A DNA stretch of 42,731 bases from Candidatus Omnitrophota bacterium (GTDB lineage Bacteria > Ratteibacteria > UBA8468 > MWAK01), in NCBI GenBank assembly GCA_026387085.1, contig JAPLMK010000091.1, positions 1-42,731 of the forward strand. Reading direction: 5' to 3'. Below are positions 8,324 through 19,287 of the stretch, one piece after another (the stretch's first letter is position 1; each line of letters starts with the position of its first letter). The position numbers and the translations under genes were made by a program. The notes below the pieces were generated by a model. That model saw only the letters and a list, made by a program, of their open reading frames with translations, had not been told where the DNA came from and made no database searches.

Positions 8324-8496
8324 GCGAGGTTGTCTGTTTCGTAAAACGAGCTACGCGCCAGGCAAAAACTACGCAATTCAGGAACGAGCCTCGCCGTGTT
8401 CTCACCCACAAATCGGGCGAGCCCCGGCCACTCATTCCTTCATTTTGCTTGTTTTGCACCGTTGCTGCGCAAGTTTTACGAAACAGACAACCTCGC
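8324..8496. repeat. Large palindromic element with 24-bp perfect terminal inverted repeats
   Basis: Left arm 8324-8347 gcgaggttgtctgtttcgtaaaac, right arm 8473-8496 gttttacgaaacagacaacctcgc; imperfect pairing continues inward. Confidence 0.85.
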
Positions 8497-8569
8497 TTGA
8501 TAAAGTTAAAACAAACGACACTACGCGAAGTATATCAAAAGAGACAAACCTCGCTTGATAAAGTTAAAA
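8491..8569 (+). repeat. Short direct repeat overlapping the right arm of the palindrome
   Basis: cctcgcttgataaagttaaaa at 8491-8511 and exactly again at 8549-8569. Confidence 0.8.
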
Positions 8570-8583
8570 ATAAAGAGGAAAAA

Positions 8584-17304: not shown

Positions 17305-17692
17305 TCAAAGATTGTTAACCATTCTTACGATTCCATCTCTTAATACCCTAACATTGAAATTAATCAACAACCCGATTTTGTAATCAGACAGCTTCAAATA
17401 AGATATCAACTGGGCTTTATGAATTGGTAACAGTTTCTCAACCGATTTTATCTCCAAGATGATACTATCCCCCACAACCAAATCTAACCGATATGCACAA
17501 TCAAGATTTACTCCACGATATACAACATAAAGTGGTTTCTGTTGTTCCACCTTTAATCCTGTTTGTATAAGATCATACACCATACAGATTTCGTAGGCAG
17601 ATTCAAGAAGTCCCGGACCCAAAGCGCGATGAATATTTATCGCTACCCCTATAATTTGTTTCCGTTATCTTGTTAAGTTCTTCTTTTTCCAT
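17305..17692 (-). pseudogene. GxxExxY protein gene with N-terminal frameshift
   Basis: Frame 1 MEKEELNKITE... shifts at the AAA run (17659-17661, + strand TTT) into QIIGVAINIHRALGPGLLESAYEICMVYDLIQTGLKVEQQKPLYVVYRGVNLDCAYRLDLVVGDSIILEIKSVEKLLPIHKAQLISYLKL...; contains the GLLESAY signature. Confidence 0.8.
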
Positions 17693-17787: not shown

Positions 17788-18822
17788 TTATTCTATCCGC
17801 TCAAAAAAATAAATCCCCACCAGTAAAATAACTGCGTCCGGTAAAAAATAAAAGCCGGCTAAATGCGGCTTAACCCGCGTCAAGGCCTCAATCCCGGTCA
17901 GCGCGAAATAATAACTCAAGACCAGGCCGCAGGAAACCGTAATTCCCCAAAGACTGCGCGGCAAAGCGATACCCAAAGGTATGCCGATCAACAGGAAAAG
18001 AAGCGGCGCAAAAGCAAAAGAAAACCGGCGCAGTTGCTCTGACTTCGCTTTCGCCGTACCGGAACGGAGTAACTGAAAACTGCTCATTTCGTAAATCTTC
18101 GGCTCCGGCCGGCCTCCTCTCGCAACAATCTCGGGCAAGGGAAAAAGATAAGTTTGGAAAGAGAGCCGCTGGTATGTTTTTACTTTTTGGGATTGATAGG
18201 TCTGCATAACGCCTTCCTGAAGGTAAAGGCACGGCTTTCCGGAGCGGAAAACCAGTTTAACCTTACGGGCCGATATGGTGCGTATCGTCTGCCCGTCTTT
18301 CTGATACAAAGTAACCATTCCTTTTTTCCCTTTGCTGGGTATAAAGAGCACTAGATTGGGAAATTCGGTAACAACCGAACCGGGCCGAACCAGGTTAGCG
18401 GTTGGATTCACTTTGACGTCTAAAAAAACGATGCGGTTCTGATAAAATCCGTAAGGCTGAGCGAAACAAAGCAGACCAAGATTAGCCAGAGATAACAAAA
18501 GCCCCAGGAAGAGAAACGGCCAGACCGCGTTTTTCAGGGAAATCCCCAAACTCTTGATGGCCAGAAATTCCCGGTCCTGGCTGAAACGGCTGAAAGTAAG
18601 CGTGGAGCCGATCAGAACGGCCAGGGCCAGGCCATACGGCAAAAGGGAAAAGAGCAGCAGAAAAAAGTACCGGAACAACGTAAAACCGGACACCAGGTTC
18701 TTCACCAGGAGGTCAACAACCTGGAAAAGGGCGCTTAAGGAGAGCAGAAAAAGGATAAAAGCGAAAGAGATGAAAAACGGCGGGCCAAATTCCGTAATCA
18801 GGTAACGGCTGATGCGCTTCAT
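17788..18822 (-). CDS. lptF: LptF/LptG (YjgP/YjgQ) family permease, LptF-like
   Basis: MKRISRYLITEFGPPFFISFAFILFLLSLSALFQVVDLLVKN; start reassigned to ATG at 18822. Confidence 0.82.
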   Translation of the reverse strand: MKRISRYLITEFGPPFFISFAFILFLLSLSALFQVVDLLVKNLVSGFTLFRYFFLLLFSLLPYGLALAVLIGSTLTFSRFSQDREFLAIKSLGISLKNAVWPFLFLGLLLSLANLGLLCFAQPYGFYQNRIVFLDVKVNPTANLVRPGSVVTEFPNLVLFIPSKGKKGMVTLYQKDGQTIRTISARKVKLVFRSGKPCLYLQEGVMQTYQSQKVKTYQRLSFQTYLFPLPEIVARGGRPEPKIYEMSSFQLLRSGTAKAKSEQLRRFSFAFAPLLFLLIGIPLGIALPRSLWGITVSCGLVLSYYFALTGIEALTRVKPHLAGFYFLPDAVILLVGIYFFERIE

Positions 18823-18827
18823 ACTTA

Positions 18828-19101
18828 GGGGTTGCGAAAGAATAAAATCGCCTATTTGGAGTCCCAGATTTAAGGTCAGTGCAAGGCGCGACGAAGGTTC
18901 TGTGCCCCCTGCGGCACACAACCGAGGAGCAACGCCGCAATGACCTAAAAACTTCGACTCCCTGAAAAGCCAGGTTTCTTTTGGGCTGCGACTGCGTCGC
19001 TCATCGCTTGCGTACCACAGTGGGTACGTAAGCTTCTTCGCTCCTTGTCTCGCTCCAAAATCGCCTCTGGCAAATAGGCAATTTTATTCTTTCGCAGCCC
19101 C
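18828..19101. mobile_element. MITE-like non-autonomous element with 31-bp TIRs and 7-bp target-site duplication
   Basis: TIR-L 18828-18858 ggggttgcgaaagaataaaatcgcctatttg versus reverse complement of 19071-19101 ggggctgcgaaagaataaaattgcctatttg (29/31); flanked by ATACTTA at 18821-18827 and 19102-19108; nested internal hairpins. Confidence 0.85.
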
Positions 19102-19287
19102 ATACTTATTTTAACATAACCGCACAGAACGTGCTATTGCTAAAATTCCGTAAATTTTAATTGACCAAACAGGTGCATCGGAGTAAAATATAAAAAATCA
19201 GGTCGGCTGTCGGGCTAAAAATATTTCTGCTTCGATTTTGCTCAGTACGGCGAGTGAACCATTTTTTTGGCAAACAGGATATGTCGG

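Follow-up and report, generated by a model that had tools for sequence, protein, structure and literature searches.

The bcr1-bcr3 repeats of the Bacillus cereus group are short and non-coding, are MITE-like in both structure and function, and are often found in UTRs or in the gaps of operons (PMC3446304). In Coxiella, QMITE2 has 23-29-bp TIRs and 7-9-bp direct repeats, and the Correia elements of Neisseria are MITEs that lie mainly just upstream of genes and carry promoters (PMC10969869). The Omnitrophota element described here is, like bcr1-bcr3, short, non-coding and MITE-like, and it shares TIRs, a short core and folding transcripts with the Correia elements and QMITE2. Like the Omnitrophota family, bcr1 folds, shows compensatory changes and makes a short target-site duplication (TSD). 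However, no sequence relation to bcr1-bcr3 was seen (the phylum is unrelated and there is no Rfam match), the Omnitrophota TSD is 3 bp (TTA/TAA), the element is longer and its copy number is lower. Unlike the Correia elements, it has no predicted promoter inside. The IS1031 group of the IS5 superfamily makes a 3-bp TNA duplication, and the Omnitrophota element resembles it in its 3-bp TTA/TAA duplication and its G-rich ends, but no transposase was found for it. A foldback in a Simkania sp. MAG (L136 5049-5207, JAGXTH010000093.1) has a very similar end, GGGGCTGTGAAATAATAAARTAAACYATTTG, and the same foldback form, with CTA/TTA flanks; its interior, however, is unrelated, it is ~160 bp in all and it comes from a different phylum. 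No MITE family of Omnitrophota is described in the open-access literature searched. The kind of element is known already; what is unusual about this MITE, and testable, is the concerted evolution of its arms and its docking at start codons.

The window is the whole 42,731-nt stretch of DNA that was analysed, which is contig C14 of a 1.47-Mb, 126-contig Candidatus Omnitrophota MAG (G000, the host). The features around the start of lptF are:

17788..18822, minus strand: lptF, 344 aa, intact (Pfam PF03739, E = 1.1e-51; best NCBIfam match LptF)
18821..18827, no strand: left ATACTTA direct repeat, overlapping the lptF start codon at its A and T
18828..19101, no strand: 274-bp non-autonomous foldback (MITE-like) element, from sequence reading, copies elsewhere and an empty site in the relative G001
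18828..18858, plus strand: left TIR, the lptF-proximal end (repeat search; the ends align across all full copies)
18858..18962, no strand: internal hairpin 1, a long stem with an apical hairpin at ~18901-18918 (fold z = -5.9; compensatory changes across copies)
19006..19033, no strand: internal hairpin 2, GCTTGCGTACC / GGTACGTAAGC (fold z = -4.4)
19071..19101, minus strand: right TIR, 29/31 complementary to the left TIR (repeat search and arm comparison)
19102..19108, no strand: right ATACTTA direct repeat, an exact match by reading
19108..19113, minus strand: -10-like TAAAAT on the lptF side; in the lptF sense it now precedes the first G of the element by 6 bp

A first-pass annotation of this DNA had placed a MITE-like element 5 bp upstream of lptF, and this reading is borne out by the TIRs, by the perfect ATACTTA on both sides and by multiple dispersed copies. 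The TIRs are 31 nt long and 94% complementary, and they are the sole inverted pair that a repeat search finds within 18700-19250. The element is short (274 bp), non-coding and bounded by TIRs. Both of the nested internal hairpins noted earlier are present. Hairpin 2 pairs 19006-19016 with 19023-19033 and shows two-sided changes at three of its five consensus pairs across copies; the entire element folds with z ~ -9 against shuffles on both strands. The interior has no coding capacity, as had been claimed. Copies range from 267 to 274 bp and differ by lengths that are not multiples of three, so no frame is conserved, and a conserved ORF on either strand was ruled out on these indels and on stops that vary. 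The claimed in-frame extension of lptF from a TTG at 18921 is there as an ORF in the mechanical sense, though nothing indicates that it is used. No outward promoter or terminator is predicted inside the element; the single promoter-like match, at 19161-19189 (+), lies outside it, and promoter and terminator counts equal those of shuffles. Rfam models gave no match in the window. The window also holds a gene for a GxxExxY / PDDEXK_3 protein between lptG and lptF (17305-17622), a second dispersed repeat family of ~150-220 bp at 8350-8570 with many copies in both genus genomes, and at 62-97 a ~36-bp repeat that recurs on several contigs of both and reads into the start of the first ORF.

The proposal that further copies should exist in the host genome was confirmed: besides the copy at lptF there are four more full copies at different places (C118, C90, C104 and C126), and the five share 80-86% identity. 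A genus relative, G001, has about eight full copies and several remnants. Among the 35 genomes of the phylum searched, three from another family of the same class (G031, G032 and G033) have copies at 78-80% identity, and G002, from the same family as the host, has none. The family comes to about 20 copies across five species, and all of the genomes are fragmented MAGs. The patchy spread fits horizontal movement, and loss is possible too. A short remnant lies before ftsK in the host (C101), and solo ends such as this one were taken as deletion remnants. In G001 the loop of one element (C44; L081 3052-3386) carries an inserted 61-nt hairpin repeat, part of which matches the host at C34:11883-11945 at 90%. 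A 38-bp element-end fragment lies in frame within a prmC-like gene of the same genome (C64; L066 3043-3080). In G032 a full copy lies inside a 1031-aa rtcB open frame with an intein-splicing domain, and the frame is uninterrupted (C157; L151 1488-1754).

The lptF site itself was found empty in the relative. G001 has no element there (sequence CATGCTTTAGATTTTAAC), and its allele, ..GTTAAAATCTAAAGC-ATG-AAGCG.., is close to the ..GTTAAAATAAGT-ATG-AAGCGC.. that was predicted from removing one copy of the direct repeat. In G002 the only match to the lptF region is 69% over 153 bp. Conversely, three G001 insertions (C49, C122 and C44) correspond to sites that are empty in the host. Empty sites in both directions support the MITE reading, as dispersed copies with the same ends occur together with insertion polymorphism between relatives. 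Could the flanking ATACTTA and the TIRs be a coincidence in ordinary lptF upstream sequence? About half of the copies have no clear TSD, as one would expect if so, but with multiple dispersed copies and an empty G001 site there is practically nothing left of this idea, and the empty sites already refute it. The first-pass annotation had taken copies lacking TSDs as evidence against a mobile element; such copies are common, but the empty sites rescue mobility.

The lptF start codon (complement of 18820-18822) stands 5 bp away from the element, with its A and T falling within the flanking ATACTTA. In the empty allele, which has almost no leader, the same -10-like box stands 7 bp before the ATG. 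The earlier reading that the insertion abuts the lptF start holds, whereas its replacement of the leader is better described as insertion between the -10-like box and the ATG. Judged by the two alleles, this insertion took place after the G001 species had split off, and it drove the -10-like box and the start codon apart; before the insertion this codon probably had little or no leader. It had also been called fairly recent. This is right for the lptF copy, which is younger than the split, but the family is old, as its copies are only 80-86% identical and remnants occur at shared sites. In G001 only GGGGTTGCGAAGAAACCCC is left (C71) at the site of the host C126 copy, and at that of the host C118 copy there is a remnant ending at a GGAG microhomology (C138); the insertions at these two sites therefore predate the split. 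A tree interleaves the copies of the two genomes (C14 with r122, C118 near r49, C126 with r239 and C104 with r103), which makes the subfamilies older than the species, though not every single insertion. At the G001 counterpart of the host C90 site, before recG, there is a different, ~150-bp repeat of the GCAGATT type (C104, L117).

Across 18 element borders, 3 bp is the only length of exact direct repeat that is clearly in excess: 8 of the 18 copies have it, while shuffles average 3.2 and 47 of 20000 reach 8. The duplications are TTA, TAA and once TTG, most of the copies that are well preserved carry one, and the empty sites agree; the other copies, about half of the set, have no visible TSD. 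The 7-bp TSD reported at lptF is exact in the sequence but atypical, since it stands alone among the 18 copies. Other copies had been expected to show different 7-bp TSDs; those with a visible TSD have one of 3 bp. The 7-bp ATACTTA may be a 3-bp duplication with a later change. The TSD also bears on the view that the element is a REP/BIME-type palindrome, moved as single-stranded DNA by a TnpA-REP (Y1 HUH) transposase. REP/BIME units are 20-40-bp palindromes with a tetranucleotide tag, accompanied by TnpA-REP in the genome. The hairpin architecture and the conserved fold would suit such an origin, but the element is 274 bp in few copies rather than 20-40 bp in hundreds, and it has long TIRs and a 3-bp duplication at empty sites; HUH transposition is not known to make a target duplication. 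This origin is highly unlikely.

A trans-acting transposase had been proposed, and it is correct that none is visible in cis, but none was found with these ends. The expected transposase gene bounded by the element ends did not turn up in the host, and an end-pattern search of the host, G001 and G002 gave no autonomous partner. A profile search with PF01609, the one transposase family covered, found nothing in the host and four matches in G001 that do not have such ends. A TIR-pattern search of public genome, viral and plasmid collections gave no autonomous element, and no phages were found. The partner may lie in a gap, since the genomes are fragmented MAGs.

Pairing between the arms is conserved although their sequence varies. 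In an alignment of 13 copies covering the terminal stem and the internal hairpins, two-sided changes occur at 21 of 90 pairs. They fill 52 cells, where shuffles give 16 and sliding the partner gives 6 at most. At one terminal pair each of the four Watson-Crick types occurs, and none of the 13 copies has a mismatch there. Arm identity is 94% within a copy and 84% between copies, which none of 20000 permutations reaches, and the within-copy matching persists when distant copies are added and permutation is kept within clades. It may be asked whether the arms match through separate amplification of transposase-matched subfamilies, each with its own identical end pair. A transposase reads both ends of its element, and the copies of the other family have a distinct end, GGGGCTGTCTCAAAATAATGTTGAC, on both sides of a largely common interior, as this account would have it. 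However, internal hairpins far from the ends covary too (helices 4 and 8), and nearly each genus copy has its own arm variant, so that the number of transposases required would be close to the number of copies; the account is conceivable but rather doubtful. Template switching in inverted repeats is known to make their arms alike and to yield multi-base compensatory changes (PMC8794818, PMC8604942). The ratio of transitions to transversions is alike for concerted changes (10:5) and one-arm changes (11:5), as copying of arms would give. C118 and r49, which belong to the same clade, keep an inherited T/C arm mismatch at position 5 and differ at position 10 as a matched pair. From this static pattern, template switching would be a likelier cause of arm matching than selection for the fold.

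The second unusual feature is position. Eleven of the 13 full genus copies stop 0-22 bp short of a start codon (lptF, pyrR, recG, ribE, pfkB, rpsN, a TPR protein, exbD, a POR subunit, carA and one unknown). Within the window, so short a distance applies to only 13% of non-coding positions and 16% of TTA/TAA sites. The gene is read outwards from the left end in 10 of these 11 (p = 0.012), and with the copies of the other family added (aspS, aroA and acpP on the left end, comEC on the right) the orientation is the same in 13 of 15. In 5 of 13 cases, that at lptF included, a -10-like box is found 3-6 bp upstream of the element, where 6-10% would be expected (p = 0.0006 to 0.008). These p-values serve as guides because the copies are related, and gene starts were assigned by reading the sequence. 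At copies r49 and r122 a Shine-Dalgarno-like stretch is present and the element lies upstream of it. The placement fits a preference for melted or AT-rich starts, or the survival of insertions that leave initiation intact. In the host, pfkB directly after the element is in two frames (C126, L016 2709-3721) and it is intact in G001 (L119 1156-2097), which may reflect assembly error or decay.

It could be suggested that the element is a functional structured 5' leader RNA, a cis-regulator that was spread by transposition and is kept for its fold before housekeeping genes. The placement, the orientation bias, the -10-like boxes and the strong covariation of pairs are all what such an RNA would show. 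However, two species of the same genus differ in where the element is present, remnants are frequent, there is no Rfam match, and lptF, pyrR, recG, ribE, pfkB, rpsN, exbD and carA have no common pathway. In the lptF sense, one-sided changes in the terminal stem give A-C more than G-U, which is the opposite of what selection on the RNA predicts, although the strand inference is weak; counted on the opposite strand they are G-U 11 and A-C 3. A regulatory leader is therefore unlikely. A related and still more doubtful suggestion is that the hairpin is a portable 5' leader, inserted where transcription begins in genes that have hardly any leader or none, whose end-to-end fold puts the mRNA 5' GGGG beside the start codon (CCCC-NNN-AUG). 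If so, the ribosome would still meet an mRNA much like a leaderless one, which would account for the close placement, for the orientation bias and for the pairing that is preserved.

Very probably, the element at lptF is one copy of a non-autonomous, foldback MITE-like family of Omnitrophota that is mobilised in trans by a putative DDE transposase and has its arms kept matching by hairpin-templated correction, by selection or by both. A DDE-type transposase encoded elsewhere would act on the ~30-bp GGGG...CCCC ends, and template switching during replication within the hairpin would use one arm as the template for the other (quasipalindrome correction). The arms may also be kept matched in part by selection for folding of the transcript. 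Most of the insertions that last would be those in the short stretch ahead of a start codon, with the gene reading out of the left end.

With ~20 copies in five species, the family is a compact natural set in which to ask how long inverted repeats stay matched, whether by template switching or by selection. Insertion near transcription starts can also be tested on it directly. How does a cell tolerate a 274-bp hairpin placed a few bases before the starts of lptF, rpsN, carA and aspS? This family allows that question to be asked.
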